NCBI GenBank assembly: GCA_015143295.1
Contig: CM026565.1
Span: forward strand, 30,636,052-30,700,051
Direction: 5' to 3'
DNA: 64,000 nucleotides
Source: Tetracentron sinense
Taxonomy: Eukaryota > Streptophyta > Magnoliopsida > Trochodendrales > Trochodendraceae
Shown here one piece after another: positions 14,962 to 42,926 of this stretch; within the stretch, counting starts at the first letter, position 1, and the number at the start of each line of letters is the position of its first letter. Position numbers and translations under genes: made by a program. Under the pieces are notes generated by a model that worked only from the letters and a program-made list of their open reading frames with translations, was not told the origin of the DNA and ran no database searches.

Positions 14962-15319
14962 TAAGGGTTTAATGTATCTTAACCTAAGTTAAAGGGATTT
15001 AAAAGGGGACATGTTAATTTTTTTTTAAAACTAGGGTTAGATGCTTTATCACTAAGGGTGTGAATCTTAATCACAAGGGTTAAAACTTATTAACCATAGT
15101 TCAAAGGTAGTTAAAGATTTGTGAGATTAAGAAATATCGTAAGGGCATAATAGTCATTTTCCTAACAATAACAAACGGATATCTAATGAAACCAAGATTG
15201 AGGTTGTTTGTTTAATGGTTGCAAAACCGTGAGTTAATTTGCGAAACTGTTACTCATAACAGCGTATTTGCAAACCCGGTAGAACACAACAACTGATATG
15301 CAAAAACCCCTTTTAGTTA

Positions 15320-17500: not shown

Positions 17501-18010
17501 ATATTAGGTGAAAGTGCAACCGCCAACCGGGGTAGCATTTCTCCTTTTAATTGGTTTGAATTTCGAGGCTGTCTTACTTAAATCCGATGAGACATAATAC
17601 CCACTTAATTTACTAATAAATATATTATTTTAATAAAAATAATAATTTTATTATAAATAAAAATAAAATTAATTAAGTTTAAACAATTTTAGACTGGATT
17701 CGGGTTTAGGGATGTTTTATTGGGTAGGCCGGATTCGGATTTGGGTTTACATTTTCATCCTGTTTGTTTCTGGTTGAAATCCTAATCACTTAACCCACTC
17801 ACACACACGGTTAGGCCAACACACACACGGCCTATGAGACTAAGCCCAGCACACCTCAGGTTCGGGCTTGTGAATATTTCATTTCTTATCAGAACAACCT
17901 CTAGCTCTCAAGTAAAGCATATGGATATTTTGAGCTCATACACTACACTGAGCTCCTTCGAGCAGTGATGCAATTCTTGTAGTAGGCTTTACAGTTACAG
18001 ATAATGCAAT
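17501..18010. other. No gene seen
   Basis: Mixed AT-rich sequence between the plastid insert and the TRIM. Short motifs such as a doubled CACACACGG at about 17800-17830 are visible but not assigned. Confidence 0.3.
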
Positions 18011-19177
18011 TATTAGAGATAATGTTAGAGAATCAATAGAGTAGTGTAATAAATTGAGATGAGATACACCATATCTTAATTTTAGGTAGATTTGAATTTG
18101 ATTCAATTAGATTAGGTGGAATTGATATTTGTTTCTATCTTTATTTGTTCCCATCTTTATATAAATCCAACGATTCAATGTAATGATCATCCAAGAATTA
18201 TCAATAAATCAATATTTTATCATGGTATCAAAACAGGTTGATTGGACATTAGTTTGAGTTTTTTTTTTTCTTTCAATCTTGTTTTTCCAGCAGGCGGCAC
18301 TGCTACCCATCCATCCTAAACCTCTATTCTTCTTTTTAGTTCCAACACTGTATCCATCACCAAACCGTAGTTGAAATATATCTATACTTTATACCTCAAA
18401 TTTCTTTTCTCTTCTTTTAATTTTTTTTTCAAACGATCGGCTTTTTCTTTAAGTGCTATTGGGAGATATCATGACGGTCTAATCTAGTACTCCAACAGAC
18501 TCTAAGATGAGTGTGATGCGATAGTGATGGACTTAACAGATAGTCGGTGACCACCAACATGCACAATTGAATAATTGATTACCAACTTCTTTTGTAACAA
18601 TTGTACGATGCTTCTTCAAAGGACTAGGTAATTGCGGGAGCGTATTAGAGATAATCTTATAAAACCAATAGAATGGTGTAATAAGGTGAGACGAAATATA
18701 CATCCATATCTCATCTCTAAGTAAATTTGGATTTGATTTAATTAGATTAAGTAAGATTGAGATTTATTTCAATCTTTGGTTCTCATTTTTATATAAACCC
18801 TATGGGTTAGTGTAAAAATCATCTAAGAAGGATTCAAGGCTCCGTTCTTTTGGTGGAATTTTTAAAAGTCCGAAACAATATTAATGTTTTGGAACAAGAG
18901 GCAAGAGTCTGGGAAGAGAGGGGAGAGGGGTTTGAACCCTTTTACTAGATGGTATCTCAGATTTATCCAGTTCAATGTAATTAGAAGTTTCACATCTATG
19001 GAACTTAAAAAATCCAAATTTTTTTGTGGAACTTGAAAGTTTCATAATTGTAGAACTTTTGCACTCTATGGAATAATATAGTTCTAGACATCAAGTAAAA
19101 TTAGACATGAAACAATGAAAATTCTAGACTTTAAAAGTTCCACCAAAAGATCGGAGCCCAATATATCAATTTGTTCA
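18011..19177 (+). mobile_element. TRIM-type LTR retrotransposon fossil
   Basis: Two related LTRs of about 212 bp begin TATTAGAGATAAT, at about 18011-18222 and from 18643. The TGGTATCAAAACAGG after the left LTR fits a primer-binding site for initiator tRNA-Met. The internal part (18223-18642) is about 420 bp and codes for nothing, so this is a terminal-repeat retrotransposon in miniature. A MITE (18838-19158) sits in the right LTR, whose remainder ends near 19177. The LTRs are clearly diverged, so the insertion is old. Confidence 0.75.
18838..19158. mobile_element. MITE inside the right LTR of the TRIM
   Basis: Termini GGCTCCGTTCTTTTGGTGGAA and, in reverse complement, GGCTCCGATCTTTTGGTGGAA. 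The 3-bp direct repeat CAA (18835-18837, 19159-19161) flanks it. The left LTR shows the empty site, confirming the boundaries. 321 bp, non-coding; PIF/Harbinger-like. Confidence 0.85.
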
Positions 19178-19351
19178 CAACAATTTTCCTAGAATATTTA
19201 CCTCTCCCAAGGATGTGAGGTCATTCCACCTTCATGGAATTATCAAGAACTGGTTAGGCAATAACAAGGACCATGATGGGCAACCTTGAGATAGTGATTA
19301 ATTCATATATATATATATATATGCAATCCTTTTATTATTTGGGAAGTGATT

Positions 19352-19519
19352 AAAAACTCTCGATAGTAGGTACTATCGAGAGCTACGGCCGTAAGATTGA
19401 AAATCCAAAGGTGCAAACACTATTGTGGGCCCCACCATTTAGAGAGTATGCAAATTCTAGGCTTTGGATTTTCTAACGTGCGGCTGTGCTCTCAATAGTA
19501 CCTACTATCGAGAGTTTTC
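19352..19519. mobile_element. Small foldback element with doubly palindromic ends
   Basis: Arms AAAACTCTCGATAGTAGG and its inverse enclose about 100 bp. Each arm contains a 12-bp perfect palindrome, CTCTCGATAGTA-GG-TACTATCGAGAG on the left, with one change on the right. No clear target duplication. Confidence 0.75.
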
Positions 19520-22500
19520 CATCAATTTCCTTACTCTTTTTATTCATTGATGCAATTGTACTCGTGGGAAATCCCATCATATGTTCTTACTTATAATATG
19601 ATTTGTTAGTACTAATAAAATCCCATAATTGCTCGCATCTTTCAAGGTTAGTGCTTGGATTGAGGGAGAACCATAGCATATATGCTTCCACTGAGGAAAC
19701 AGCAAAGTTGGGAATTGTACAGTGTAGAAATAAAAGTTCATGGATGAGTACAAGTAAGGCCAACCATTGCTAGGAAAGATGAGCATTCAACAATTAGAAA
19801 ACCAAGAAACTTCAAACATATGAAAGAAGGTTTTTCTAATATTGCATATTAGTGTAATGTTTACAATAAATAGAGATCTTTACTCTTTGTTAATTAACAA
19901 AAGATACATTATTAAAATAAGAAATTATTGTGATTTATTACTTCATAGTTTTAATATAGATTTCAAAATGCTATTGCAAAAATACTCCATGGTAGCTGTA
20001 TATGATTTATTACATAATACTAATAGCTTTTTTTTTGTTGTTGAAAGCTGATCATAACTCTTTTTTTATGAAGTAAAACTTCTTTTTTCTCTTCCCAAGT
20101 AGGTGGAGGTTCGAATCAATCTATGACTGAAAACATTATTTTATATGAGTAAATTAATCAACTAGTCTTTGAAAATTAAAACAGTAATCCCTAATAATTA
20201 TATTAAAAACATAATATTTATTGAGTATTATTTTATTAAAATTCCTTGCAATATCTAATAATAAAAATATAATATAATATATGATATGATATGATATAAA
20301 ACACTACTACTACTTCTAATATTATTATTATTAGCATTAGTATTAATACTATCACTATGATTATATACTTTCTTTTATTGTATACTGAAATTTCTGTACA
20401 TGTAGAGTTGTTCTTAAATTAGGAGTTTTTTTAGGGAATATATATTTATTTTTCCTATTAATTTTTTATATTTATAAGAAATAAAAAATCTTAAATATTT
20501 ATTAAAAATCAAAACTTTATATAAGTTTAATCCAAAGTAAAAATCCTTGTAATTATAGGACTCTTCTTAATTTAGAATTTCTTTCCAAATATTTAATATA
20601 ATTAAAGTTTTAATAATTCTAAATTAAATATTATCGTCCATTAATTATTATAGTAAATACATTATTTTCTCTAAATTAGAATTTCTTGTAATTGGTAAAT
20701 TCTTCCTCAAGTAGATTTTTTAAAAAAAAATTATTATATTATAGCAAATACATTATTTAGTTTTTCAAAAAAAAAAGTTATTATATATATATATATATAT
20801 ATATATAATAAAAATATTTAAAATAGTAAACTAATAATTTATTGGCATATTCACTTATGACAGAAGTTCTCAATTTACAATTGGTAAATACATAAGTATA
20901 TATATTTCCAGCCGAAAAAAGTATTACATTTAGTTTCTTATTATAAATTAATTTTAAATCACATAAAATATTATTAATTCAGAGTAATTTCTTAATTAAA
21001 ATTCGTAAGAGCTTTTGTTACTATAAAATATCATTAGTGGGCCCTACTTAATTTCAATTTATGCAGAGTAACTGCTTTATTTAAATTCTTCCAATTTTAA
21101 TGAGTATTGGAGATTAGTAGTGGATTTCATCAATAGTAAAAGTATTAATTAGATCTAATTACAAAAATAGACAGATATAATAATATCTTATAATGTTACA
21201 TAACATAAAGTTAATAATGTCCAATAAAAAATTCATTAAAAAATAGATTTTTAATTGAAATCTTAAAATTGGCTGTACTTAAACAAATTCATATGTTTCT
21301 CCTTTTTTTATTGTCTTTTAATTTTTAACATTCTAGCGTAGTGTTATCTGAAAAGAAAAGTTTCAAATGACACTCAAAATTGTCCTTCTGTCGATCACCA
21401 CTTAAAAGTGCTCACATTTTTGTTACATTGACTAAAAAACACAATGCTGCTTTTTTACTTTTAATCTCTTGCTTAATCAGTTGAAGGTGACCACCAAATA
21501 AGGGGAGTTATATACAAGGACATGTTTTGGTGGGGTTCAATGTTTTGGTTTGTTTAAAAAAACATTCTAATTAAGATCATGATTAAAGGTTTGTTTTGTC
21601 TTCTTTTTATAAAATTGAGATCGAGATCTAAAGACGAAATTACGTGTGGAAATGACAAACTAATACTAACATGAATTGCTCATTAATCTTATGCCTTAGT
21701 ACTATCTGAGCACTTATCCTAAAGGTGATTTTGGAGCTTTGGCACAGAAGGCTTGGACAATCCGAGTCACTGCATAAGGTGCTGAAAAGGGTATCAAACA
21801 CACCTTACTATATCCAACTGGTCCAGCAGCCTGGACCCAAGTGAAATGAAATGCCATAGAACTGGTTATCTTGAATGGGGTACTTGACTAACAACAAAGC
21901 ATATGAAGTAACATAAAGCTAGCTTAAAGGAAGACAAGAATCTTACTAAAAGCTAAGTAATTGATTGTAGGAGACCCTAATGAATGTATAGTTGCTTTTT
22001 GACCAATAATCTATTTTTATAAGATATTCATGAGGTCAATGAGGGGAACCCATGTAAAGATGTTAGCTGAAAAGATATGGAATCCAATGTGATTTACTTT
22101 ACAAATATGCATGTTAAGATCTTCATGGTTGGAAGTTCTAAGATCAATTAACGGAATTCTTCTATGCAAATAATAATAATATTAGAGAAAGAATCACGAA
22201 AAATAGAAACAAAATAGCAAAAATTCACACACAGATTTACGTGATTTGACAAGGTGCCTACCTACATACTACGACTACACCACAGAGAGATCATTTCATT
22301 AACTTCTGGTGAAAAACGGGTTACAATTCTCTCAGGTCTTCTTTTCTGCGTAATAAATAAAACTTAATCATAATGCATATATATTGTACAATAGCGTAAA
22401 ATTATGAAATTACCATTATGTAACCCTCTAAAAATTTCAGGTTGTAGTACTTGAGTGATAACAGTCTAAAATGACAATGAACCACAATACAAGGCACAAT

Positions 22501-24057
22501 CATAACAAAAATTATACTAGAATAATACTAAATCAACTCCGTTTTATCGCAAAGAAAAAATAGGAAAAATGGAAAGAGTATATCATTTCGCCATGAAGAA
22601 ATGATTAGTATGATGCTTTTGATTCATATCAAGGACAATGCATTAACTTGTGATCAGTAACATAAATGGGCATCAATCTCCAAATTTGGACCTTTAGCTT
22701 CTTGATTTATGTTTAATGGATCGACTGTTCTGTTCATAATATGATTACATTGCCTCAAAGATTTTCCAGGTGCTAAATGAGCATACTCATCCACACAAGG
22801 AAGTACGATCGTAAATTGAAATATAAGGTAGAGTGGCAAATTAAGGTTCCGCATATCTCTCAAATGGTTAAACTCAGACTTGCATGATGAGAGATTATGT
22901 CTTGTGTCATAGCTCCAAACATCCTAACAAGGCAAGCACTTAACATTCCGTTGCGTCTGAATAAAAATACCCCATTTGGTTAGGGTATCGTGGTATCGAA
23001 GAAACTTCATATTATTGAGTAACTTCTATGATATACATTGATCTTGTAGAGGGTTTATATAGACAATCCAAGACTCCAAACTTAGAAAGATAACCTAAAA
23101 GATAATTCTCGATCTAATCAATACTAAAGATAGTAATTCAAGATTATGATTGTGATGTGCTCTCTGTGGTAAAGTGTATCTCATCTTACATTTATTTTCC
23201 TAGGTATAAATGGCATCACTTAACATGGATTTGAATCACCTTGCTAACGAGGTCGAAGTAAATCATCAGTGTTATCTCATTCAATTTAAAAGGAAAGAAA
23301 TGAAAATGTGGATTTGACTCACTTTGAACTTGATATTGCGTTCCATACTTTCCAGGCAATGCATCCTGTTCTTATCTTTATAATGACTTGTGTCTTTTAG
23401 GAATTTGATGATTAGAGGGATCATAACTCATTGCCCCAATTAGCTCTAGTACTTTAAACAAAACTACTCATAGATATTCCTTGAATCTTATATCCAACTG
23501 TCCTCTTGCATTGGTTGAAACAAAAGCTCTAATGGTGGTCCATGAACAAGTTTTTTTTTTGTTGCTGATTTGTCAAACTTAGATTGATATTTATGAATAC
23601 AGAAAAGCACTGCCAAACATTCCTTGAACCACCTCAACAAAGCTGTCTTGAATTATAGATGTCAGGACAATCCCATGAGAGAGAGAGAGCAACCATCTTT
23701 TTAAAGCTTATACTAAACATATTATATCTCCATTAATAAGAAAAAAAGAGAGAAGGGATTTCATAAGCTTCATGCACCAGACAATAAAGCTAGAAACCCT
23801 CTCTAACACAGACACTGGATAGTAGATTGAAACCACCAGAACTACATGGCTATACTTGTTATGGGAAAGCTAACAAAACGCAGAGAGATATAGGCGCCCT
23901 ATGCGAACATGGGTCATCAACCATGATTCAGTAGATCGTTCCCTAGCACCATAGAGAAACAAAAATAAAACAAAGACGGGCCCCCAAAAAAAAAAAAAAA
24001 AAAAAAAAAAGAGTAACTTGGAATACTATATAAGATAGTCTCTCTTGGTTTCTCTCC
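19520..24057. other. AT-rich interval without a recognisable gene
   Basis: Very AT-rich between 19.8 and 21.3 kb, with a (TA)n run at about 20783-20807. Stop codons are dense on both strands. Around 22190-22340 there is wording reminiscent of retrotransposon leaders (ACACAGATTTACGTGATT ... AAGGTGCCTACC), but no LTR pair, PBS or domain was found. An A-run lies at 23984-24010. Confidence 0.5.
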
Positions 24058-24784
24058 TTAGACTGCACTACCTGAAAAAAATAATATCCATGATTGTTGT
24101 AAGTATATATACAGTTTGATAATGAAAATAATATCCAATATATTAGAAAAGCTATATGTTGAATATGAAGAATTGTTACCGGAGTCCCTCGGTGCATTGC
24201 ATCTGAAACATTCCGTCCTGCTAGCGAAGTTGTGTTCATTGCACCCCGGCCTGTGTCGAGCTCCAAAATACATTCATATAATTAGGAATAATTCCATAAA
24301 ATATTATACATATTGAATTATTATTTTCTCAATTACTGATCTCATTTTCTTCAACTTCACATAAAAAAAGGAGTTAAAACTAAATTCACCTGGTGCAAAT
24401 CCAGTCACCAGACTTCCAACCAGAGCGGCCACTGCCACTTCCACCGCCTCCGCCGCCGCCGCCGCCGCCAAACCCAAAACCTCTTGAACGCGACATGTCA
24501 CCCTCAGACCCACCAGATGACTCATCCTTGAATGCACCACACTTGAAGCAACTCGAACGGCTAGCGAAGTTATGGGCTCCACAGTTTGCGGCGGAGCAGT
24601 ACCAGTCTCCGGGCCGGACGTCGGAGCCACTAAATCCAAATGATGATCCACCCCTCGCACTGAAACTTCCATAGTCATTACCTCTATCACCCATCTTCGG
24701 GTCCCCGCACCGGTGGCACGAATCCCGCCTTTGGAAGTTCAGGTGTTGGCATGACTTGCAATTCCAATCTCCTGGCCGGCTCAT
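24058..24784 (-). CDS. RanBP2-type zinc-finger protein, three exons
   Basis: Exons 24784-24390, 24250-24180 and 24071-24058 join in phase to 159 residues. Three zinc knuckles of the W-X-C-X2-4-C-X10-C-X2-C type are seen: GDWNCKSCQHLNFQRRDSC, then GDWYCSAANCGAHNFASRSSC, then GDWICTRPGCNEHNFASRTEC; the last is split by intron 1 and ends CFRCNAPRD. It matches the small plant RanBP2-type family (Arabidopsis At3g15680-like), thought to bind RNA. I chose the ATG at 24784 because the family starts MSRPGDWNC; the frame upstream has only a TTG. A run of about ten glycines, coded mainly by GGC, separates fingers two and three. The last exon codes only four residues and the stop. Confidence 0.9.
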
Positions 24785-26847
24785 CTTCTCTGTCTCTAAA
24801 TCCAAAGAACAAAAAGGAAAGGAGAGACATAGAAATCATATTTCAGTTAAAAAGGGAGAAACGAAAAAGAAATTATCTATTTCTATGACTCTCCTATAAC
24901 AAAATTTTAGCTCCATGAAATAGCAAATTAAAGATACCCAAATGGTCTCTCTTCTATATAGATGTTAAAAATATAGTATTATCTCTCCCTTATTATGCTA
25001 CTAGTGCTTGAACTAGAAAAAAGTAAAACCATACTAAAACTAAAACTAAACCTAATAAGAGGAACAGCATCAAATAACAACCCCAAGTTCTTTAACTTGA
25101 GGTTCTTCTTTGATAATAGGCGTTAATCGAACCCATGACGATATTGTTCAACTATGGCGATCAACCCGACGCAGTTGGGGTTGCCGGAGTTACAAGCCTA
25201 GGAAGTCATCAAGAAATGTAGAAAAACATTGAAAAGGAAGGATCTCTAAGGGTTCACCTTAAGAAAATGAAAGATGACTTCAAAGAAAGGAGAGTGAATA
25301 AAAGAAAGAAGAATAATAAAGGATTGTTGAGGGAATGTGTGATTTGGGAATGTAGGTTGGGGTTGTTTATATATACTTGGTTAGGCCTCAAGGATCGAGG
25401 TTGCCTGTGGAGGGTCGTGGATGTTCTTTTTCGTGTTCTTCACCTAGCCTCCTTGAACAATGGAATCTCAAAAAATCTAAAAGAAGAAAAAGAGATGAAT
25501 AAAATTTCAGATGGGATTCCAGAGAAAGAGCAAATTTTGAAATTGCTACTACTTCTTCTTTTAGGGCTAGCTTCTAGAGTTGGGAAATGCATCTGTGCAT
25601 GCACACATGCACACAAAATTCACATTTAAGTTCCATTTATGCCCCTCTTTATATGATTCCCAATCTATTATGTATTGTTGATCAAAAGCTTTTAATATTA
25701 TTCTCTCTATATCTTTCTAGTAGGGCTTCAGGAGGGGTGTTTTTTGAAGGGTTGTGGATCTGGCTTTCCCCCATTCCTCATTCACGTGGATGGCCACTCC
25801 TTCCTCCATTGGTGCCCGGCCACATGTGTGGGGGCATGGGTGCACACACACGCCCGCGACATCTGGCATGTATAGCCTGTCGTCGACCTTGAGTTCTTCA
25901 CGACTCACATTCGCATACGCAGTAATTGATAATTAGGGACTAATATTTTTTCTTAATTAGGATTAAGGAGGTGTGGAGATAGCCATATGTATATAGTTCA
26001 TCTGATACTGTAATAGGAGTCCTTTACACATAATCGTGAGCAAAATTAACTATCCATTATCACCTTATCGGCACCTAATCGAGTCTATCTAATGTCACTA
26101 ACATGTAACACGATTCTCTTTAACTCTATAATTCATCCCACTTGCACTTATGCTTTCCCTGAATAGCTCACAATTCAGGCTCACGCAGTTACGGTGCATA
26201 TGGTTTAGGTTCAACGCGCGCGCGACACTTGTGAAAATCGCCCAGGAATTTATTCCCCTCGATGCAAATCTATAACCAAATTCTATTCTCCCTAGTTTGT
26301 GCTCCTTTTCGCAATAATTCAAAAGCCATGTAGATTCAGTATGCTTGTCTTCTCATATCGATCGTGATAAGGCATAAAGAACATGTTGGGTAAACTTCCC
26401 ATGAAAAGATTTGTATTTCTATCTCCTCATTGGAATCCAAGTGAGTGGCACTCAGTTGGGGTCAAACCAAGTTGCACTACCTCGTCGAGCCGAGCTGAGC
26501 CAATTTGGTGGCCCATGTCCCACATAAAGCAACACAGGAGAAATTGTAACCTCTAAGCACAACAAACCTCATCCAGAATCTACTCAATTAAGTGACCCAT
26601 GAACCTTAGAAAGACCCTTTTGAATATTTTTATTTTAGAGCCCACATTTGCTGAGGTGGCGAATGGAATGGAAGTCCATGAAAGCACAGTGTGGCACAGG
26701 TGCCTGCATGTTGACCCAAGATTGGATAAGGGGGAATACAAATCACCATTTCTTACCATACACTGAATATTCTATACATTAAAACCTTAAGAGAAAGACC
26801 AATTCCTTATTCTTATCTCCATTTTTTTAAAGGACTTTGCTATATGT
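24785..26847. other. Upstream flank and intergenic region
   Basis: The first few hundred bases probably hold the leader and promoter of the RanBP2-type gene. Open frames at 25.3-25.9 kb have no domain or coding character and are not called. A CGCGCGCG run lies at 26215-26222. Confidence 0.4.
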
Positions 26848-29261: not shown

Positions 29262-32099
29262 ATTGATTAAAGTCATTTACAAGAGGAAGACAACAACATG
29301 TGTTGCTTCATTAGTGAGAGTAGGGAATTCTGAGAGCATAGATAGTATTCAAAAGGAGAATTCTGAGTTTTTGGAGCTTGAGGAGATATCAACCAGGGAT
29401 GTGTTGAAGCTTCGAGATGAGAATGTACAGTTAGAACAACACACACCGGTACCTGAGATATCATCTAGAACAATTATACCTCATGCTCGCTTTTCACCTT
29501 TTCTCCATTATCTATTGTTGATAGATAATGGTGAACCAGAAAGCTATCAGGAAGTACTGCAAACAAAAATTAAGGTTGAGTGGGAGCTTGCTATGGATGT
29601 GAGATGGACTCCCTCTCATCCAACCAGACATGAAATTTAGTGAAGCTACCTGAAAGGAAATTTTTTTTTGCATGACAAGTGATTTACAGGTCAAAGCAAA
29701 AACATGGCAGTTCAAAGAGATACAAGGCCAGATTGGGAGTAAAAGACTTTCAGCTGAAGGAAATGATTGACTTTATTGAAATTTTCTCATCAATTGTGAA
29801 GTTGTCAACAATCAGACAAATTCTTAGTATAGTGGATGTAAAGGATTTACATCTAGAGCAGTTGGATGCAAAAACGGTTTTTCTTCATGGTGACCTAGAA
29901 TAAGAAATCTACATGCAGCTGCCATAGGGATATGCAAATGCCGGGAAGGAAAGTTTGGTGTGTAAGCTTAAGAAGAACTTATATGGCTTGAAACAAGCTT
30001 CCAGGTAATGGTATATCAAGTTCGATACCTTCATGAATGACAAAGGATATAGGATATGCCATTCAGATCATTACCATTATTTGAAAAGATTTAAGTCATC
30101 ATGCATACATAATTGATTACAAAATTAAGGATATCCTTCTATTATATGTTGATGATATGCTTGTAGCGGGATCAAGCATGAAAGAAATTTCAAACTTGAA
30201 GAAGCAACTCTCGGAGGAATTCATTATGAAAGACTTGGGTCCCTCAAAGTAGATACTTGGCATGAGGATCACTAGGGATAGACCTAACAAGAGTTTGAAG
30301 CTATCTCGGGTAGATTATGTGGCCAAGCTACTGAAGAGATTCAACATGGAAGGTGCTAAGTCAGTTAGCACTCCTTTGGCAAGTCACTTTAAACTTTTAG
30401 TAAAATAGGGCATTGAAACTTAGATAAAATTGGAGTTAAGATACCATTTGCATCTGCAGTTGGTAGTCTAATGTACACAATGATGTGTATAAGACCAAAC
30501 ATTACTCAAGCGGTGGAAGTAGCAACAGATTTAATTTATGAGCAACCCAGGAAATGAGCATTGGGTAGCCATGAAGTGGATTCTAAGGTACTTGAGAGGT
30601 ACTATAGAAAAAGCTTTATATTATGGAGGTTCAAAAATCAGTCTACAAGGATTTTTTTTATTATGATATGGCAGGGAATATGGATAGCAGGAAGAGCACC
30701 ACAGGGTATGTGTTACCCTGGGCAGTGGAGCAGCCAGTTGGGTCTCAAGGTTACAGAAGATAGTCTCCCTTTCGACATTTGAAGCAGAATATGTTGTAGC
30801 AACGGAAGCTTGCAAGGAGATGGTATGGCTTCAGAGTTTCTTAAATGAATTGGGCATGAAACAAGAGAATTGTGAATTACACAGTGATAGTCAAAGTGCA
30901 ATTCACCTGGCAAAGAACTCAGTCTTTCATGTGAGGACAAAGCACATCAATATTCAATACCATTTCATCAGACCACTATTGGAGGAGGAATTGATATTTT
31001 TAGAGAAGATCCACACAAGCCTAAACCCTGCAGACATGTTGACCAAGACGGTTACTACAGAGAAGCTGAACCCATGTTCAGTTTATGCTGGTCTTCAAAC
31101 TTGAAGATAAGGTGATTCAAACCAGCTTTCATAGGGGAGTGGCACTATAGATGAAGCAAGTACATCGGATGAACTCTTGGAGATCAGTCTCCAAGTGGGA
31201 GATTGTTGGAGTGTGAAGCCTGATCTGAAGAAACCGGTCGATGGGTTCCCAAACATGTCGACCATTGTTCATGGTTTTACCATATTCGGAAATCCAATAG
31301 CCAATTTTGGTAAACCGGTCGAACTGTTTGGAAAACCAGTCGATCGATTATCGTAGACCTTGGGTTTTTTAGTCCGAATTTAGCCTATTTTGAGCTTAGT
31401 ATATAAGATACTTTGTGCTAGGGTTTCATCATTCATTCACTACTACAAATATGTTGATTCTATAAAAGAAGTAACCACGTTTTATTATCTCTTCAACTAT
31501 GAAAATATAAACTTTAGTTAATTAATTAAAGTTACGATCATAGTTACAAAAAAAACACTATTGATATAAGAAAATGGATCACGCTGAAAATAATTAAGGT
31601 GATCGAAACTCCTATTATCACTAAAAAGTCACTTCATCTCTCTCTTTGCACTCATATTTTGAACATAGTCCTTAACTACATATGTTTCTTCTTCTAGCAA
31701 CCACTGCATTATTCTATCTCACAAAAGTTCCATTCCATTTAACCTCCTGCATCCATTCCGTTTAAATTCTAGCATCCGTTCCATTCAACCTCTGGTAATT
31801 GTTCCCTCATTTCGTCAGATATGTATTCTTTCTATGTCTTCTTTCATTTATTTTCACCCAAATGATTAAACAAATACTCAAAACATATTGAACGGAGGAC
31901 TTCCAATGACAAATCATTTTTAATTGAGAAAGTTTCAAATGACAAATTTATGCTTTTGACATAAAGTAGACAATACTTTTATGCTTTCAGCATTTGAATA
32001 AGGCTTTATTGTTTAATTATACATTTGTTCATAATAATCATGCCATAAACACAACATTTTGACACAGAGCCAAGTACCAGTGGTCCTACCTTAAAAAAA

Positions 32100-33530
32100 A
32101 TGCAGAGGCTCCACCATGCTTGAAAAGAAAATTCAGAAGCAAAATAATACCATTGATGAGAAGAAAATTGTTGAATTAAATCCTAGTGGAATACCAACTG
32201 GTGAAAATAAAAAAGATTTGGGTTCTACCATTGGTGTTTATGTACGTGAAATTCCAATTTTTTTTATAGGAATTGGAAACAAGCTCCAGCTGAGGTTAAA
32301 GACAAGCTTTGAGAACAGTTGACTGTAAGAATCTTTGCATATATAATATTCATACTATTTTTTGTCTATATATATGCAATTCTTTGAATTTATGCATAAA
32401 TACACTTAGAAAATATATGTTTACACTGACTTTGTCTATATGTGTTACTGTAGCAAGAATTTGATCTTGGAGAAAGCTACAAGAAGCAATTTTTGAAAAA
32501 AATTTAATTTCTCTTGGAAGACATTCAAGAAGTACCTCTGGAAGAAACACATTTCTCTATTTATTGCCAGTGAGGATGTCGATCTAATAAATTTTCCCAT
32601 AAAGTATGTACATATTAGGCCTGAACAATGGGATGTGTTTCTAAATTATACTCTTTCAAATGAATTCAAGGTTGGTAAAAATTATAATTACTTATCTATT
32701 TTATTTAATCTTTGTACTTTACTTGAACTTATGCTTAATTATATTAATATTTTCAAACCTTAAGTAAAATAAATAAAGAAATAAGGAAGAAGAATATATA
32801 TCCTCATCGTCTAAGTAGGGGGGTTATGATGGGGTTGAAAGAAAATTTGTGAGTGTTTAGATTTCTAGAATTTACTATTATGTAACTATTATACTAATTA
32901 TTAGCCTAAATACTAATCTTTAATATTTAATATTTGGCAAATGACTGAATCCACTTCTCAAGGGCAGCCAATTGAGAAAGTGGAGAGACATATTTGTGGG
33001 TTAAGGCCCTACAAAGACCACAATGCCAATATACTTCTGATGAGACAAGAAAGAATTCTACAGAAATTGTAAGTGTTTATTTGATTATTAGTTTTCTTCT
33101 CATGTGTGTTTCTTTGTTGGCATATTTTTTGATTAGCTGAATGCTTCTTATATAGAAACAATTTGAACAGAAATATGTCGAGGGTGGAAGGAGCATACTT
33201 ACTGATGAGAGATTTAACATTCCTATGACGGTGTTAAGTCCAGAACATTCAGGCAGTGAGACAACTCGTTGTCCGCATGATATATTGGGGTTGCCCCAAA
33301 TGTACCAAATTAATACTCGACATGTGTGCATGAAGTTCAAGAATTCAAATCTCAACTGCAGGAAATACAAGAAAGGGATAAGCAAAGAGAAGATAAGGAG
33401 CAACAATCCCTTAAAAGGGAGGAAAATCATAATTTGCTAGTACAGAAATTAATGACTCAAGTGGTTGTTCATCAATCTGCACAGTCATCTGCTGGTAGTT
33501 CATTCCAAATTGTATGTAAATAGTTTGGTT
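32100..33530 (+). pseudogene. Plant CACTA transposase-associated remnant
   Basis: Plus-strand pieces read SEDVDLINFPIKYVHIRPEQ-WDVFLNYTLSNEFK (32565-32670), KINKEIRKKNIYPHRLSRGG (about 32768-32825) and a Gln/Glu/Lys-rich coiled stretch FKSQLQEIQERDKQREDKEQ (about 33340-33400). These resemble the plant Ptta/En/Spm transposase family that accompanies CACTA elements. Segments are separated by AT-rich introns, and intact splicing is not demonstrated. Confidence 0.7.
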
Positions 33531-34392
33531 CACTAGATTTGTTATTACAATATATTGTTTTGATATGATATAATATTATTTACTAATTTTTATACAATAG
33601 GTGAAAGCTGCACAAGGACTGACTACTCTCTCTCCAAACTCATCAGACAATTTTCTCAAATAAAGGGTGTACGTATTTATTCAATTTAATTAATTATCTA
33701 TTAGTTATATTATTGTAAATTATTACAGATGCTTAATTAAAAAGTCATTGGTGTGTAAACATATAAACCAATAGACTTCATAGTTTAGCAATATTCATGA
33801 GTTATAGATTTCATTCATCTTAGGTGGAAGCTGCACAATCAACAATTATTAATTCTTTGGAGGAATTGAAGCATTGACTTGGTGAGAATTATAAGGATGA
33901 TGCAGTTCTAACTTTAGCATATGATCTGAAAATTATCATAACATATTTTGATGCATTGTATATCACAAAGGACAATGTCACAGAATTGTGTATAGATAAC
34001 GATATCGGTGTAATTTTGATTCTTGTATATATATGGTGAGACAACTCAAGAATTAATTAAAATTGTTTTTTTTGCTTTATTATTATTAATATTTAGAATT
34101 GTTAATTATTTCAGAATAATATATGAACTACTATTGGGTGATAATAACAAAAGAAAGTATATATTTTTCGACCCCAACTAACATTAAATCCAAAGGATGT
34201 CAAGACAGAGATAACAAGAAAATTGCATTTAGCGAAGAATAATTAACTACTCATTATACAATATAATGTTGGGTAAATTTCTTTCTACTTCTCTCATGTT
34301 ATTTGACTTACTAAGTATGAATACTATTAATTCTTTAAGTTGAAGTATTCGTTTAAAATGAAATTTTATAATTCATTTTTCAATTGCAGAAA

Positions 34393-37300
34393 TGTAGAAC
34401 CTCGAAAATCATCACATAGTTGGTGAATAGTGTTAGTGAATAGTGATTTTGATCAAAAATGACATTCGATGTGTTATGGTGTATGCATTATGAATAAAAT
34501 GGTGTTAGACACAAAAATATAATGGTGTATGGGTGTTAAAGTAAGGTAAAAGAGTGAAAACACTCTAGGTAAGTCAATGGAAGAGTGAAAGCACTCTAAG
34601 TGGAAAAAATGGGAAGAACAGGAGGGTTCACCAAGTTCTGATGAATCCCGGTCCACCACCCCCTAAGGCCAGTCCACCGGTTGTCATGAAAAAGCCCAAA
34701 GAATGGCATAACAGTGAGTTGGTTGCAGGGCCAGTCGACTGCCCCTCAAGGCCAGTCGACCAACTGTGGCATTTTTGCCCAAAATGAGCTAACAGTAAGG
34801 AATTTCATAGGGCCGGTCAACCACCCCTCCTAATCGGTCGACCGGGCACCCGAGGTTTTGCCTGATTTGGTCTGTTGGACCATTTTATTAAGAGTAGGAA
34901 GGTCTTTTGACCTCCCATTTTTCTATAAAAGCCCCAAATTCGTGGGTTATGGTTCATAAACCCTCAAGCCAATCTAAGAGAGTTCTAAGGGGAGAAATTA
35001 GAGAAGAAGGAAGGGGAGAAGCTTCGGTTTCTATTGAAGGATCAAGGTGGAACTTGGAATCCTTCTTTAAGCTTGGATTCTTCTTCAAGCATGGATCTCA
35101 TCTCCTCAACCTTTCTCAAGCTTTTCTCTAATCTAAGAGATAAGTACTACTACTATCTAGCTTTGCTATGATACAAAGACTTAAATGAAGATTGAATGCA
35201 TAATTTTGAATAGGATTTGCTAATGCTCTCTACTAGATGACTTTATTAAGATTCAATGTTGTAAATAAGGGTTTTCTTAGGTTGAGGGTTTTCAATAAAA
35301 GGATAAATATAGTTATCTTTTATATGATTGTGATTATCTCCCAATGAATTATGATTCTAAGTATGATTGTCGCGACCCAAAATACCCCCTAGGAGTTAAG
35401 GATACTTTGACTCGTGACCGCCATATCATACCTCCAGTATGATACATAAGGCACACGTGGAAACCTGTCAGAGTACCTGAATATACATAGCGGAAACGAA
35501 ATACAATGCACAGCGGAAAATAAAATACTAAACATAGCGCCTATAACTTGGCTCCAGTAAGAACCAACAAGCATACATGTGTGAGAAACCCAAAAGTGGA
35601 GTGGACAAACCCCACACTCACATAACAAAAGACACAAGTTCTAAGTCGGTCGATCAACAGAAATCGAAGTCACGACTCCTATCTAAAGCACCATCGTCAT
35701 GATAGTGATCCATGGAAGGCTCCGGGTCACGGTACTCTTCCTCGACCCAAGGTTCTTCGCCACACAAATCAAATGGAACCCGAGCACCTGCCGATCATAA
35801 CAATATCGACTAAGCATGGAATACTCAGTGTATACAAACTAATAACAATAAAGCGGTTAGGCATGGAGCATACAAGACATGGAGAATGAAATCCGTAAAT
35901 TCCTTAAAGCATGGAAACCGTGAAAACGTATGTGAGATAATATTCGAAACCAAAACTGTAACCGTGTGAGTCAATCGATAATCATAGCCTTATGAGTTCT
36001 TGTGAGTTCATGGAGTTACTTAGAGTCATTATGATCCGTAGAGACATAGAGCATAGAGCAATAACCTTAGAGCATTTCCATAGAGCATAACCTTAGAGAT
36101 CTTAGAGCATTTCATTGTGATCCGTGGAGCTTGTGAGACGATCTTAGAGCATTATCATAGAGTTTCCTTGTGAGCATGGTATGATCCTTAGAGCTTGTGA
36201 AACGATCTTAGAGAAATCATAGAGTTACTTAGAATCATTCATTATTCGTCTTTTCGTGAAAAATCCTTGTTTGTACTTTGAGAAATCCATGGAAACCATC
36301 GGTTTATGCGAGACATGCGAGCATATGCACTTAATAAGAGAAATCATCGTATTTAAGCATAGAATCCCTTAGAGGTATTTTATCAAACACTTAGAGTGCA
36401 TCATAATAGTAACCTTCATCCAAGTATATATAAAATCACACCTTTCCATACATAAAATCAATACACATAGATAGGGCATAGATAAGAAGAATCATAGTAG
36501 GATTGCAAGATTGTAGTAGAGTGTATCTACCTTAGAGAAATCAATGAGTTTGACTCCCAATGGCTGGAACAAGCAAGAACAGTGAGTTCGTGGTTGGAAA
36601 ACACCAAATGGAAAGGAAAAACTTGATCTTCCACAAGCCTGAACGATCACCAAGTCCTCTCCTTCTTCTCTTCTTCAAATCCCTCAAAAATAATGCACAA
36701 AGGGTTTGTGAAACCCTAAGGCACGAACCCAGCCCTTTTATAGGCAAAGGGTGATGGTTAAAGTCTTAAACACCCTTAATGAAGAAAATCTGCGTATGAC
36801 CGATCGATCGGTGGTATGGACCGAGCGATCGGTGGCTTACCGGTCGATCGGTGTTATGGACCGAGCGATCGGTCAAAAACACACTCTCTGGAATTTTTCC
36901 CCATACAAAAAAGTTAACCGTGCGACAGCTATCGAGCGATCGGTAGTTGACCGATCGATCGCAAGTAATGACCGAGCGATCGGTGCTCTGTTATGTCTGG
37001 ACTGTTTTGACCATATCTTTTGACTCGCTCGTCGGATTTCGACGATTCAACTTGCGTTGGATCCGTCTTTCGAAAACGAACATTTCTGACATTTCAGAAT
37101 TTCCGATTTCTCCCTTATTTATTAATTACACTATAAAAACGGCCAATTAGCTACGAAAGTGCTATTCATTAAGGATGAAAAAGTCCAGGGTGCTACAATG
37201 ATAATTGATGGAATAGGCTTAAAAACCAAGATCATTATAATGTAATGCCATGAATGGATATGTTCCATGTTTTTAGAATTGTTCAAGTATACTATGATGT

Positions 37301-38375
37301 TAATATGTCTTGTATGAACTTGTATGCAATTCCATATATATTATGATGTTTACAAGCACTCCACGCACACTATGTTTTACATAACTGATGTTTTCTTATA
37401 AGCATGGTATTTCAAGGATCATAAGAAAGGTTTTCTAAGGAAATTTCATAAGAAGAAGCATAAGTGCATAAACATTGACAAGGCCAAACTTTGGGTTGGT
37501 ATTTCTAAGATCGGTTACCTCATGCTCACAAGGATCAAGTCTAAGATCTTGCTTAAACTCCAAGGATCATAAGTCTCGCAAGGCTTCTAAGAATTCATAA
37601 GAAATGAATAGGTCTAAGATCGATTACAAGGCTCATAAGATTACAAGGTTTACAAGGTTACAAGGCTCATAAGTTCTCACAAGCTCTACGGATCATGTCT
37701 AAGATCTTGCATATGCTCTAAGGATCATATGCTCACAAGAAACTTATAAGAACTCGTAAACTCACAAGGAACTCATAAGAACTCACAAAGCACATAAGCA
37801 TTCATAAGAACTCATAAGGCATAAACAAGATGTTTTATTTTTCATAAAAGATAAGATTTGACGAAAGGTTTTCTATGATGGGTTTTAAGCATTAATTTTA
37901 TGAATGGTATTCTTTTATGCACTTGCATGTGATATTATTGTTAGCTAGTAGTAATGTTCACTGAGTATTCCATGTTCAGCTGTACATTTTATGTCAGTAG
38001 GTCAGTACGACATCTGTGATCTCAATCCATGGGCCGAGGAGGACTACGGTGAGGAGGAACCGGCAAAGGCTCAGCCAGAGGAGGATAGGAACCTTGACAG
38101 GTGGCCTTATCCTAGATACTATTAAGAGTGAGTAAGAGAGAGAGACTACATTGTATTTTATGAGTGGGCAAGTCCACTCTTATTTTAGTTTATGTATTGT
38201 ACAAACTTGGAATACTGATCAAGTATAGAAAAGAAATTTAAGTTTACGCTTCTACTCTATTTTATGTTTCCGCTATGTTATGTCTTGGCTATTTTACAAG
38301 ATGGTTTTGTATCGGATATTGCACATCACGAGCCAAAGTGTCCCTAACTTGTAGGGGATATTTTGGGTCGCAACA
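34393..38375 (-). mobile_element. Solo LTR fossil (outer), inside the CACTA element
   Basis: Begins TGTAGAACCTCG and ends GGGTCGCAACA, flanked by the exact 5-bp duplication AGAAA at 34388-34392 and 38376-38380. Read on the minus strand it starts TGTTGCGACCCAAAATATCCCC, nearly the same as the inner LTR, so both belong to one family in opposite orientation. About 2.1 kb of its own sequence remains around the inner copy. No internal coding region. Confidence 0.85.
35368..37197 (+). mobile_element. Solo LTR fossil (inner)
   Basis: Runs from TGTCGCGACCC to GGGTGCTACA, 1830 bp, with exact 5-bp duplications ATGAT at 35363-35367 and 37198-37202. It sits in the outer solo LTR. The region 36797-36985 contains an array of GATCGATCGGT/GAGCGATCGGT motifs, and 35990-36250 repeats CTTAGAGCAT-type words. 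Exact flanks suggest it is younger than the elements around it. Confidence 0.9.
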
Positions 38376-38639
38376 AGAAAACACTGGTGCTTGAGTCTAC
38401 TTTAACCAGCCACATTTTCAGTGAACTGGTTGGACCCATTACAGATAAGCACATCCAACCGCCCACATGTTAAAATCATTTTCAATGAGTAAGTAATTAT
38501 ATTACATATTTTACATCTATATTTATGTTTTGTACTAATATTTTATACTATATGTTCAAATTGCTTTTGTGAAGTACATTTCATGAATCTGGGGTGGATG
38601 GTTTAAAAGACAAGAAGAGAAGACCCAAAGAGTGGACAT

Positions 38640-38935
38640 TTATTAATGTTAAGATAAATTAAGACCGATATTAATTAATTCTTCTAATGTTGTAATATTA
38701 AAAATTGTATGATTTAAACATTATTAACATAGTCTTATTCATTTTTTATTTATTTTTTGTAGTATCTGAAACAAAAAGGAAGTCGGGAATGTGGCTACTA
38801 CACCATGATCTACCTGAGGGACATCATCAATAATAAGAAAACAAATATATCTGACAAGATTAAAGATTGTTTTACATCTAAAGTTCAGAATTGTAGAATG
38901 ATGAAGCAATAAAAGAACTTAAGAAGGAACTAGTT
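38640..38935 (+). pseudogene. Ulp1-like (C48) peptidase domain of the CACTA element
   Basis: The plus strand reads YLKQKGSRECGYYTMIYLRD, which has the Q-X5-CG core of Ulp1-type cysteine peptidases, including the catalytic Cys. Such domains are a known cargo of plant CACTA elements. Only the C-terminal portion is recognisable; the catalytic His/Asp part was not found. Confidence 0.65.
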
Positions 38936-39719
38936 GAATACTTGTGAAGTTATACTGCTTAGAATAACATTTCCGTATTCGTATTTTGCTCATATTATAA
39001 ATAAATTTCTATTATTTAATTCATTGATGTATAATGTATTATATTTGCAAGTTAGTGTGTTTATAAATGTAGTAGTGGGTGTGAGGAGTTACAGGTTACA
39101 GGGCTGCATAATATTTATGGATTTCAAATAAACAATAATCATTGTTACCTTGATAACTGTGATTTTGGAATAAAAACAATCACAGTTTACCAAAATAAAA
39201 TGTGATCTAAAATAATTAAAGAAGTCATTTTCAAAAGGAATAATCTCTATATTTATAATATTCAATCACGGATAAAACTGTGATCGTTAATATTCATAAC
39301 AATCACGGTTAGAATGAAATTTAAATGCAATATATGATCACGCGGTAAAGGTCTCAGTTCAGTCTGCGCGTGGTAACCGTGATTAACATCTTACAGTCAC
39401 AGATAGAAACCGTGATCAACGTGCCACGGATAGAAATCGTGAGCGATGAGTCTTTTTCTTGTAGTGATTGTAGCCACCAAGAAAGGTTTTCTGAGAGAGA
39501 GAGAAGTATGTATTGTTCGATTTGCTTTTGCCATTGAGCATAGTGAAGTGGTGTGGATGTGTGGACATAGACATCATTAGCCGAACCACATAAATCTTAT
39601 GTTGAGCGTTCTTTATTGCTTTTCTTAGTTCTTATTCTTTCAGTTATCGCTTGTGGGTTGTTGTGCGATTCTCAACGATTTTTGACTCTTTTTAACTATG
39701 ATTAAGATTCAATATGAAG

Positions 39720-39806
39720 CAATGTTTTAATATCCAGACCGGGCCTTGAATTTGTTGGGCGACTGGTTCCTGGTTTGGTCAACTCCAATGAATTGTGGTC
39801 TTTCAT

Positions 39807-39845
<39 letters not shown>

Positions 39846-40038
39846 TAGTTTCTTTGATTTTTTCGGTTAAGCCAAAATTTTCAATTGAAACGATCAGTTT
39901 TATTGATCTTTTAATTTTATTTTAGAACGCTTTTAAAAATAGATCGCTTTTGGTGGTTTTGGAGACTGGTTGACTAGCCAATTCCCGATTTTTCCCGTTC
40001 AACTAGCCGATCGATCTAGTCCAATTTTGAAAACCCTG
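39720..40038. mobile_element. hAT MITE of the GTTTTCARAACCGG family, copy 1
   Basis: Ends CAATGTTTTAATATCCAGACCGG and, in reverse complement, CAGGGTTTTCAAAATTGGAC. Flanks ATATGAAG (39712-39719) and ATACAAAG (40039-40046) match at 6 of 8. Contains a (TA)n run at about 39810-39838. It lies directly beside the end of the copia LTR. Confidence 0.8.
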
Positions 40039-40194
40039 ATACAAAGAGAGAGAGTGAGCTAGCAAAATCTATTTAGGTATGTTTCCCTACTTGCTTAGGA
40101 TTGGCTACATGTAGCTCTCTGCTCTCCACATCTTGATCATAGATGTCCAAAATGAAAGTACGGTGGTCAATCAATCATGAGATCGGCCTCATAG

Positions 40195-40365
40195 CGAGGA
40201 GGGGATTCTTCTTTCTTGCCCTTAAAATGCCCTTTAATTAAGATTAAAAAGTTTTAACCCCTGTGTTTTTTTTTTAGAAAAACATGGTTAAACGTTTTAA
40301 CTCTAAGGATTAGTGAATTTTACCCATAGTTAAAAGGAGTTTAAGGGAGCGAGACGACTTTTCCT
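40195..40365. repeat. AACCATGGTTAAG module, dispersed copy
   Basis: Carries CCCTTTAATTAAGATTAAAAAG, AACATGGTTAAACG and GGATTAGTGAATTTTACCCATAGTT. Both ends have GAGGAG-type sequence as in the copies at 16880 and 49980. Confidence 0.55.
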
Positions 40366-40369
40366 CTCC

Positions 40370-40573
40370 TCGCCTTGCCGGTTCCCAAAACCCTCAAAAT
40401 CGAAACTCTTTAAGAATCGGCTAGACCCGGTCAGAACAAGGTAGAACGGATCAAAACTGGAAAAAATTAGGAAAAAATAAAAAAGAAAATTGATTTTTTG
40501 CAAAAGATATACGGTTGAACCAGGAACCGGCCACTCTACCGGTTCGATGTCCGGTCCGGTTATGAAAACAGTG
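40370..40573. mobile_element. hAT MITE of the GTTTTCARAACCGG family, partial copy 2
   Basis: The right end CCGGTCCGGTTATGAAAACAGTG is clear and matches the other copies. The left end is damaged (GCCGGTTCCCAAAACCC). It stops about 140 bp before the OTP82 start codon. Confidence 0.65.
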
Positions 40574-40715
40574 AGTAGAGTAGCATGGACTTTCTTCCAA
40601 AAATATCATTGTTATCTTTGGCAGTTATTTTGGCGGGTAATGCTAATAACAGCATTTCAAAACAAAACATTTCCACTTCTCCTTATCTCTCTTTTTCCAG
40701 TTACCACACACAAGG

Positions 40716-42926
40716 ATGTTGTTCTCTTCACCTTCACTTGTCCTCTCTCCCTCCTCTCTCCATCTCCTTCCCTCCTCAGACCCTCCATACAAACTCCTCA
40801 AAAACCACCCTTCTCTCTCTCTTCTCTCCAAATGCAAAAGCATCGAAAATCTCAAACAAATCCACTCCCAAATCATCAAAACTGGTCTCCACAATACCCA
40901 ATTCGCACTAAGCAAGCTCATTGAATTTTGTGCCATTTCGCCTTTCGGTGATCTTTCTTATGCCCTCTCAATCTTCGAATTAATCGATGACCCAAATGTA
41001 TTCATCTGGAACACTATCATCAGAGGCCATTCTTTGAGCTATTCTCCGATCCTTGCCGTTACTTTTTATGTTCGGATGCTCCACGCTGGGGTGGAGCCGA
41101 ATTCCTACACCTTTCCTTTCCTTTTGAAATCTTGCGCGCTAGTTCCTGCTACCCATGAAGGGAGACAGATCCATACACATGTTTTGAAGCTTGGTCTTGA
41201 TTCTGATGCCTTTGTTCATACTTCACTTATCAATATGTATGCTCGAAATGGTGAATTATCTGATGCACGATTAGTATTTGATAAAAGTTCTCTAAGGGAT
41301 GCAGTTTCTTTCACGGCTTTGATTACTGGGTATGCTTCTGGGGGTTATTTGGACGATGCACAAAGGCTTTTTGATGAAATTCCTGTTAGAGATGTTGTGT
41401 CATGGAATGCTATAATTGCTGGGTATGCTCAAAGTGGCAAATTTGGAGAGGCATTGGCTTTTTTCCAAGAGATGCTGAGAGAAAAAGCCCAACCCAATGA
41501 GAGCACAATGGTTAGCGTCCTCTCGGCTTGTGCTCAGTCGGGTTCCCTCGAATTAGGGAAGTGGGTTCACTCTTGGATTGAAGACCGTGGACTTGGTTCA
41601 AATCTTCGGCTTGTTAATGCACTTATTGATATGTACTCAAAGTGTGGGGATTTGGAAAAAGCTTGTGGTTTGTTTGATGGAATATGTCAAAGAGATCGAA
41701 TCTCGTGGAATGTTATGATTGGTGGCTATACTCATATGAGCCACTATAAAGAAGCCTTGGTTCTGTTTCGGAAAATGCAGCAATCAAATGAAGAGCCAAA
41801 TGAGGTCACCTTCTTGAGCATTCTTCCAGCTTGTGCTAACTTAGGTGCTCTTGATCTTGGCAAATGGATTCATGCATATATAGATAAGAACTTCAGCAAA
41901 TCAACCAATACTTCCCTTCCGACTAGTCTCATTGACATGTATGCTAAATGTGGAAATATAAAGGCTGCACTACAAGTCTTTGACTCTGCAAAACCTAGAA
42001 GCTTGGCTTCTTGGAATGCGATGATATCTGGGCTAGCCATGCATGGGCATGCAGATATGTCTCTTAGGCTTTTCTCGGAAATGACCGAAGAAGGATATGA
42101 ACCGGATGATATCACCTTCGTTGGTCTTCTTGCAGCTTGTAGTCATGCTGGTTTGGTAGAAGTTGGCCGCCAATATTTTGATACCATGATCCGAAAATAT
42201 AAGATTTCACCAAAGGTGCATCACTATGGATGTATGATAGATCTCGTCAGTCGAGCTGGGCTGTTTGATGAAGCAGAGGCCCTTATGAAGAATATGGAGA
42301 TGAAGCCCGATGGTGCTATTTGGGGTTCTCTGCTCCAAGCTTGTAGGGTCCACGGTAATGTAGAGTTGGGAGAATTTGTTGCAAGGCAACTTTTTGAACT
42401 GGAGCCCAAAAACCCTGGGGGTTACGTGCTTTTATCGAACATCTATGCAGGAGCTGGCAGATGGGATGATGTAGCAAGAATACGAACCAGGCTAAATGAG
42501 AAGGGAATGAAGAAAATCCCTGGCGGTACCTCTATTGAGGTGGATAGTGTTGTGCATGAGTTTCTTGTTGGTGACAAATCACATCCACAGAGCAGAGAAA
42601 TATATAAGATGGTGGAGGAAATAGATGAACTGTTGGAATTTTCTGGGCACGTGCCTAATACATCAGAGGTGCTTTATGATATAGATGAGGAGTGGAAAGA
42701 AGGGGCATTGTCTCATCATAGTGAGAAATTGGCAATTGCTTATGGTTTGATCAGTACAAACCCAGGGACGACAATTAGAATCGTGAAGAACCTTCGTGTA
42801 TGTGGAAATTGTCATTCAGCAACAAAGCTCATATCCAAGATCTTCGACAGGGAGATTATCGCTAGAGATCGGAATCGTTTCCACCATTTCAAAGATGGTT
42901 TTTGTTCATGCATGGACTACTGGTGA
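40716..42926 (+). CDS. DYW-class PPR RNA-editing factor, OTP82 orthologue
   Basis: A single intronless frame of 736 residues. A Ser-rich N-terminus (LFSSPSLVLSPSSLHLLPSS) suits a chloroplast transit peptide. A long PLS-type array of pentatricopeptide repeats follows (repeated VHTSLINMYA, DVVSWNAIIAGYAQSG, LVNALIDMYSKCG, SLIDMYAKCG), then the E region and a full DYW domain: HSEKLAIAYG with the HxE zinc site, CGNCHSATK with CxxC, and the terminal DYW. Along its length it reads like Arabidopsis OTP82 (At1g08070, 741 residues), which edits ndhB and ndhG transcripts in plastids. The PG box reads PGGTSIEV, a mild departure from the usual PGCSWIE. Start choice: first ATG of the frame, matching the family N-terminus. 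Confidence 0.93.
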   Translation: MLFSSPSLVLSPSSLHLLPSSDPPYKLLKNHPSLSLLSKCKSIENLKQIHSQIIKTGLHNTQFALSKLIEFCAISPFGDLSYALSIFELIDDPNVFIWNTIIRGHSLSYSPILAVTFYVRMLHAGVEPNSYTFPFLLKSCALVPATHEGRQIHTHVLKLGLDSDAFVHTSLINMYARNGELSDARLVFDKSSLRDAVSFTALITGYASGGYLDDAQRLFDEIPVRDVVSWNAIIAGYAQSGKFGEALAFFQEMLREKAQPNESTMVSVLSACAQSGSLELGKWVHSWIEDRGLGSNLRLVNALIDMYSKCGDLEKACGLFDGICQRDRISWNVMIGGYTHMSHYKEALVLFRKMQQSNEEPNEVTFLSILPACANLGALDLGKWIHAYIDKNFSKSTNTSLPTSLIDMYAKCGNIKAALQVFDSAKPRSLASWNAMISGLAMHGHADMSLRLFSEMTEEGYEPDDITFVGLLAACSHAGLVEVGRQYFDTMIRKYKISPKVHHYGCMIDLVSRAGLFDEAEALMKNMEMKPDGAIWGSLLQACRVHGNVELGEFVARQLFELEPKNPGGYVLLSNIYAGAGRWDDVARIRTRLNEKGMKKIPGGTSIEVDSVVHEFLVGDKSHPQSREIYKMVEEIDELLEFSGHVPNTSEVLYDIDEEWKEGALSHHSEKLAIAYGLISTNPGTTIRIVKNLRVCGNCHSATKLISKIFDREIIARDRNRFHHFKDGFCSCMDYW

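Follow-up and report, generated by a model that had tools for sequence, protein, structure and literature searches.

Nested long terminal repeat (LTR) retrotransposons are reportedly found in wheat 3B, and solo LTRs across plant genomes; there, elements lie inside elements and solo LTRs remain after the interior is lost. Which recombination pathway produces plant solo LTRs is usually deduced from counts. Here we describe a locus of Tetracentron sinense within a 64,000-nucleotide stretch of contig CM026565.1 (the window; contig C15 of the 1.16-Gb genome, and all own-genome searches below cover that same assembly). From the outside in, a copia remnant contains a CACTA-like transposon, which contains an outer solo LTR, which contains an inverted inner solo LTR. 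This nest is the same in kind as those of wheat 3B, but here classes of element are mixed, and the innermost insertion is very probably polymorphic in the sequenced plant. The nest itself is the product of an ordinary process and a clean, verifiable example of it. The part worth a second look is the outer LTR, which is present in two versions of different sequence.

Two described systems bear on that pair of versions. At dimorphic HERV-K loci, solo LTR and provirus alleles occur at one site, and one locus, 1p31.1a, is still dimorphic despite an estimated 8.5–12 million years and carries signs of LTR gene conversion (PMC4422153). The likeness lies in a single insertion site with different structural alleles, and 1p31.1a gives a precedent for long persistence (PMC4422153); here, in contrast, both alleles are solo LTRs, and they differ by 9.7% within identical flanks. 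Single-strand annealing in yeast likewise leaves one repeat copy, with mismatch correction across the annealed repeat, although the repeats there are 200 bp at 3% divergence, compared with 2.1-kb LTRs at about 10% here (PMC10868807). Among the titles and abstract openings listed in literature searches, none described a single insertion with two solo LTR alleles of diverged sequence, which is not proof of absence.

The layers of the nest and their target-site duplications (TSDs) are listed from the outside inward, with window positions and the basis for each:

29262..31203, forward strand: pol remnant of a Ty1/copia element, truncated at the 5' end and broken by stops and frameshifts, reverse transcriptase followed by an RNase H-like part (RVT_2 matches)
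31204..31437, forward strand: left part of the copia 3' LTR, starting TGTTGGAGTG, with a TATA-like site (joined LTR continuous in relatives; homologous 5' LTR in L048)
39467..39677, forward strand: right part of the copia 3' LTR (joined-flank relatives; L048 alignment)
31438..39466, forward strand: CACTA-like DNA transposon, about 4.04 kb once its inserts are subtracted, with decayed coding pieces (terminal CACTA, 3-bp TSD, insert-free relatives)
31435..31437 (left) and 39467-39469 (right), unstranded: CACTA TSD, ATT (flanks of the ends)
34393..38375, forward strand: outer solo LTR, 2148 bp when the inner insert is not counted, TGTAGAACC...GGGTCGCAACA (ends, TSD, joined-flank relatives, same site in contig C823)
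34388..34392 (left) and 38376-38380 (right), unstranded: outer LTR TSD, AGAAA (flanks of the ends)
35368..37197, reverse strand: inner solo LTR, 1830 bp, of a chromodomain Ty3/gypsy family, TGTCGCGACCC...GGGTGCTACA (ends, TSD, relatives; absent from C823)
35363..35367 (left) and 37198-37202 (right), unstranded: inner LTR TSD, ATGAT (flanks of the ends)

The initial annotation had proposed these four levels in this order, each with its own TSD and with the two solo LTRs in opposite orientation, and had held that the flanks join into continuous parent sequence. The ends, the TSDs and searches with joined flanks bore this out. For each insertion, the insert was removed and the 150–200 bp on either side, with a single TSD copy, were searched against the plant's own genome; the counts are of scored matches (40 per query), not total copy numbers. 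With the CACTA-like element removed from the copia LTR, 36 of 40 matches spanned the join, at 75–85% identity. The same number did so at 78–87% when the outer LTR was removed from the CACTA-like element, and at both levels the four remaining matches were halves of the window and halves of C823, an unplaced contig. With the inner LTR removed from the outer one, the join was spanned in 39 of the best 40 of 917 matches (81–92%), C823 included; the sole exception was the window itself. Uninterrupted relatives thus exist at all three levels. Non-self matches of the inner LTR (41) comprised 39 at 92–97% plus two others, both short, with 80% and 84%, so that similarity to relatives increases inward, from copia through CACTA and the outer LTR to the inner LTR, as the insertion order predicts.

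It is these joined-flank searches, and not the 3-bp TSD, that constitute the strong evidence for the nest. In this window, equal words at the TSD separations have a chance of 0.020 for 3 bp, and of 0.0017 and 0.0018 for the 5-bp repeats. Taken alone, the ATT duplication (P about 0.02) could be chance and is weak evidence, which tells against the reading at that level. One might argue from this 3-bp TSD that the layers are fragments juxtaposed by chance, with no insertions at all, but joined-flank queries matched continuous relatives at three of three levels, and we regard such juxtaposition as extremely improbable. Both the outer and the inner LTR are complete, run from TG to CA, have a TSD on either side and hold no internal sequence, in agreement with their earlier description as solo LTRs; because the TSDs are intact, we infer that the internal regions were lost by LTR–LTR recombination.

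The best reading is serial transposition into one spot. A copia element came first, and its 5' portion went missing afterwards. The CACTA-like element then entered the remaining copia LTR, and a Ty3/gypsy-like element entered CACTA, of which a solo LTR would be what recombination left. The final arrival was a chromodomain Ty3/gypsy element, from a family related to but distinct from the previous one; it entered the outer LTR, inverted, and would have been reduced in the same way. The locus had been called a dated record, which goes too far because LTR–LTR divergence cannot date a lone LTR; what is established here is a relative order of insertion, together with the joins.

Contig C823 (26438 bases) holds a second version of the locus. 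Its positions 2-26436 are collinear with window 15716-44042, minus the inner LTR, whose place is an empty site. The inner insertion is therefore very probably polymorphic, C823 being the probable other haplotype, and it is young, since C823 lacks it. When the outer LTR and the noisy contig ends are excluded, C823 and the window differ by 93 substitutions in 20,996 bases (0.44%; by stretch, 26/8728, 43/8352 and 24/3916). Other allelic-looking pairs of chromosome and unplaced contig, three usable among the four tried, gave 8/1385, 12/3401 and 15/2294 differences per aligned columns (plus 44 gap columns in the third), and copies of the outer-LTR family were present in two of the three. L038, on C1354, was rejected as the allele of L015, on C16, at 82% identity; by score, the partner of L038 may be C12:20468015. 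C823 resembles the other haplotype because its divergence is similar to that of the three pairs, and judged by sequence it is probably that haplotype. Its ends (about the first 1.3 kb and the last 1.6 kb; L035-L037) look like uncorrected long reads, with frameshifting indels in the PPR gene, and its left stretch (window 17236-26000) has 32 short indels to 26 substitutions, so polishing was uneven.

The outer LTR at this same site in C823 was compared with that of the window, version A:

C823:18616-20782: outer LTR version B (same site, AGAAA on both sides)

Versions A and B differ by 204 substitutions in 2107 aligned bases (9.7%) and also by 16 indels. The differences run from LTR position 10 to position 2131 of 2148, and the adjoining 300 bp of each flank have none. 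Every 200-bp bin of the LTR contains some, most densely at 600-800 (63 differing columns) and most sparsely at the 3' end. Transitions and transversions number 137/67, and the 204 substitutions are accompanied by 8 short indels. In the noisy ends of C823 the corresponding values are 52/92 with 36 short indels per 144 substitutions and 92/149 with 35 per 241, and read noise was rejected as the source of the A/B difference on this pattern. In a tree of 17 copies of the outer-LTR family, the private branches of A (0.054) and B (0.055) lie within the range of other copies and are similar to that of L011 (0.052); thus neither version resembles a recent arrival.

We favor, with a confidence that stops just short of even, an original insertion with two differing LTRs, of which each haplotype kept another one whole. 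The original LTRs would differ by age and by exchange with other copies. After a break in the internal region the whole LTRs would anneal, and deletion by single-strand annealing, with correction toward one or the other strand, would leave each haplotype with a different entire LTR. Annealing would yield such whole-LTR outcomes because the heteroduplex spans the entire repeat. Two independent crossovers, in contrast, would produce alleles that agree up to the first crossover and again beyond the second; they would need the first to fall at most 9 bases in and the second in the last 17, a coincidence of about 7e-5 if positions are uniform. That solo LTRs of one insertion, different from edge to edge in two haplotypes of one plant, are the footprint of single-strand annealing between strongly diverged LTRs is a suggestion we make tentatively and with some doubt. 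Several observations weigh against annealing of two sister LTRs. Ultrafast bootstrap support for A and B as neighbors is only moderate, both for the whole LTR (UFBoot 87) and for its middle (85) and right (83) thirds, whereas the left third places B with L041 (UFBoot 94). Among the best 40 of 1700 matches to the left third of A, a C23 copy reaches 89–90% and C1354 and C12 copies 87%, compared with 82% for B. At LTR positions of about 600-720, A and B represent two different family subtypes, with indels of 10 and 12 bp, and only 6 sites are exclusively shared by the two, compared with 23 over the LTR for L014/L016 and 27 in the middle and right thirds for L046/L047, the closest other pairs. Because of the left-third distances and the subtype difference, A and B are not simply the identical-at-birth LTRs of one element, and as plain 5' and 3' LTRs they would need an added exchange. 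The price of annealing is accordingly that the LTRs must have been strongly different, partly by subtype, so that one of them must have exchanged sequence earlier; and in yeast single-strand annealing is already hampered at 3% divergence (PMC10868807). Two candidate yardsticks for 5'/3' LTR divergence in the outer family were set aside: L044/L045 is a duplicated segment that includes flank, while L046 and L047, separated by 8.5 kb, are copies whose relation is unproven.

Ectopic gene conversion from another genomic copy, overwriting the outer LTR of one haplotype out to the edges of homology, would avoid the need for strongly differing LTRs in one insertion. It would also suit the different subtypes of A and B in part of the LTR and the ending of the difference at the limits of homology. 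We nevertheless consider it somewhat unlikely, because the candidate donors are distant: for B, the best other copy reaches 85% over the full length and 88% over part of it (best 40 of 10158), and for A, the best other copy reaches 90% in the left third (best 40 of 1700), while in the center the best match, at 92%, is B itself, followed by one at 91% (best 40 of 917). An artifact, in which C823 or the window is misassembled within the outer LTR, might be suspected of a contig that is short, unplaced, noisy at its ends and unevenly polished. We think this unlikely, since the differences look evolutionary in their transitions, transversions and indels and unlike noise, the private branches of A and B are similar to that of L011, and the source copy was not found among the scored candidates (best 40 of 917, 10158 and 1700). 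Finally, C823 could represent a recent duplicate of the locus instead of the other haplotype; it is unplaced, but its collinearity over essentially its entire length and a divergence similar to that of the three other chromosome/unplaced pairs make a duplicate decidedly improbable. The retention of different whole LTRs by the two haplotypes is the account we carry forward.

The two solo LTRs of the nest had been assigned to the same family. In sense orientation they are 54% identical (964/1779 aligned positions); 20 dinucleotide shuffles averaged 43% and did not exceed 45%, and the antisense control gave 43%. The best local matches are 50 bp at the shared 3' end (86%), a 52-bp piece (85%) and other short pieces, and each LTR has one TATAAA (at 456 and 532). 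Members of one family share 80% identity over 80% of their length (the 80-80-80 rule), which the outer and inner LTRs fall short of; the single-family assignment is thus rejected, and by sequence they are best described as related lineages of distinct families. Both carry a short acidic reading frame at the same place:

35654..35794, reverse strand: short acidic reading frame in the inner LTR, FDLCGEEPWVEEEYRDPEPS... (same place as the outer-LTR frame)
37991..38125, forward strand: its counterpart in the outer LTR, likewise short and acidic, YDICDLNPWAEEDYGEEEPA... (open in C823 too)

The frames align over 39 codons, stop at the same place and share 13 identical residues, with proportions of nonsynonymous and synonymous differences (pN and pS) of 0.41 and 0.73; 25 differences fall at third positions, versus 15 and 14 at first and second. 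The frame is possibly a conserved peptide encoded by the LTR, a weak suggestion from two sequences, and, judged by eye, at least one other copy (L045) has a stop that interrupts it. From its ends, its short reading frame and the layout it has in common with the inner LTR, we infer that the outer LTR also belonged to a chromovirus. A plasmid search with part of the outer LTR gave no match, and a search for the LTR ends in viral contigs gave 0 matches. As a separate observation, repeated motifs of the CGGTCGA/CGATCGGT type lie upstream of the TATA box in all three LTRs, including the unrelated copia LTR, and CCGGTCGA occurs 4 times in the window, always within the three U3 regions (31204-31400, 34640-34860 and 36790-36990).

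One full-length relative of the inner LTR, L009 on C8, has the domain order of a chromovirus: Retrotrans_gag, zf-CCHC, RVP_2, RVT_1 and Integrase_H2C2, then a C-terminal Chromo domain (E=3.6e-5; 24.0 bits, slightly below the cut-off of 25.1). Relatives L004, L010 and L052 carry the primer site TGGTATCAGAGC after the LTR, which presumably fits initiator tRNA-Met. The lineage may be Tekay/Del, as the start and length of the LTR suggest. Inspected by eye, 4 of 7 other inner-LTR loci are solo LTRs with a 5-bp TSD (L003, L005, L007 and L008); the other three (L002, L004 and L006) adjoin internal sequence. The R-U5 part of the inner LTR also lies under a different U3 head in an element at C21:27815220 (L010; the U3 of the inner LTR is window 36985-37197). 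Over its first 235 bp the C21 element is 68% identical to the inner LTR in the opening bin, falling to 35–43% thereafter, identity jumps to >90% at the start of the CGATCGGTC array, and the alternative head is present at both LTR starts of the C21 element. The inner LTR was rejected as a recombinant of two families, as copies with the same U3 head (L051-L053) carry its R-U5 too in 3 of 3 cases; because these copies combine inner head and inner R-U5, the odd head belongs to the C21 element.

The outermost layer had been described as a copia LTR, and such an LTR is there, but the layer comprises more than this, namely a remnant that includes pol. Among seven stop-free pieces, RVT_2, the copia-type reverse transcriptase, scored above the cut-off on 29676-29903 (E=2.4e-11) and 30085-30252 (6.3e-9) and below it on 30253-30408 (0.011), with no match on the other four; 30688-31104 we take from its motif to be the RNase H-like piece. 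Only the 3' LTR is left of the full Ty1/copia set of two LTRs, primer-binding site (PBS) and TSD. Self-comparison of the window showed no second LTR copy that could be the 5' LTR, and no TSD of the copia element itself was seen by eye. The relative L048 aligns to 39680, and the end of the copia LTR is placed near 39677. In L048 the 5' LTR is followed by TTGGTATCAAAGC, which we presume to be PBS-like. Just outside the copia LTR, beside a DYW-type PPR gene (40650-42926, in keeping with plant-like gene content in the window), is a foldback-like element at 39685-40573, with inverted-repeat arms at 39720-39775 / 40518-40573 and 39685-39714 / 40311-40340.

The CACTA-like element begins CACTACTACAAAT... 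and ends ...TTCTTGTAGTG. Its terminal repeats (CACTACTACAAAT / CACTACAAGAAAA) are flanked by ATT on both sides and are imperfect past about 6 bases. The final 0.2 kb of the element holds five of the 8 ATCACGG/ATCACGC words that the window has on either strand, as expected of subterminal motifs. Its assignment to CACTA is weakened by ends that match poorly past CACTAC(TAC)AA and by the lack of a transposase domain, none of 8 stop-free pieces reaching the Pfam cut-off; seven had nothing at E≤1, and 33314-33523 had three sub-cut-off matches to unrelated families. We file it as CACTA-like and non-autonomous, because no transposase domain was found and the likeness of its pieces to Transposase_24 and Ulp1 is a presumed one. 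The insertion point of the outer LTR reads, by eye, as an intron–exon edge of the element's decayed gene (TTGCAG/AAAACAC), the flanks at 34380-34392 / 38381-38395 being ...TTTTTCAATTGCAG / AAAACACTGG.... Elsewhere in the window, 12100-15310 contains many related direct and inverted repeats of roughly 60–400 bp, perhaps repeated insertions of the miniature inverted-repeat transposable element type.

Solo LTR alleles of different sequence in one insertion could reveal the recombination pathway directly. If our reading of the outer LTR is true, one insertion can yield deeply diverged alleles. The divergence of alleles within an LTR can be some 20 times that of their flanks (9.7% vs 0.44%), which would mislead dating.

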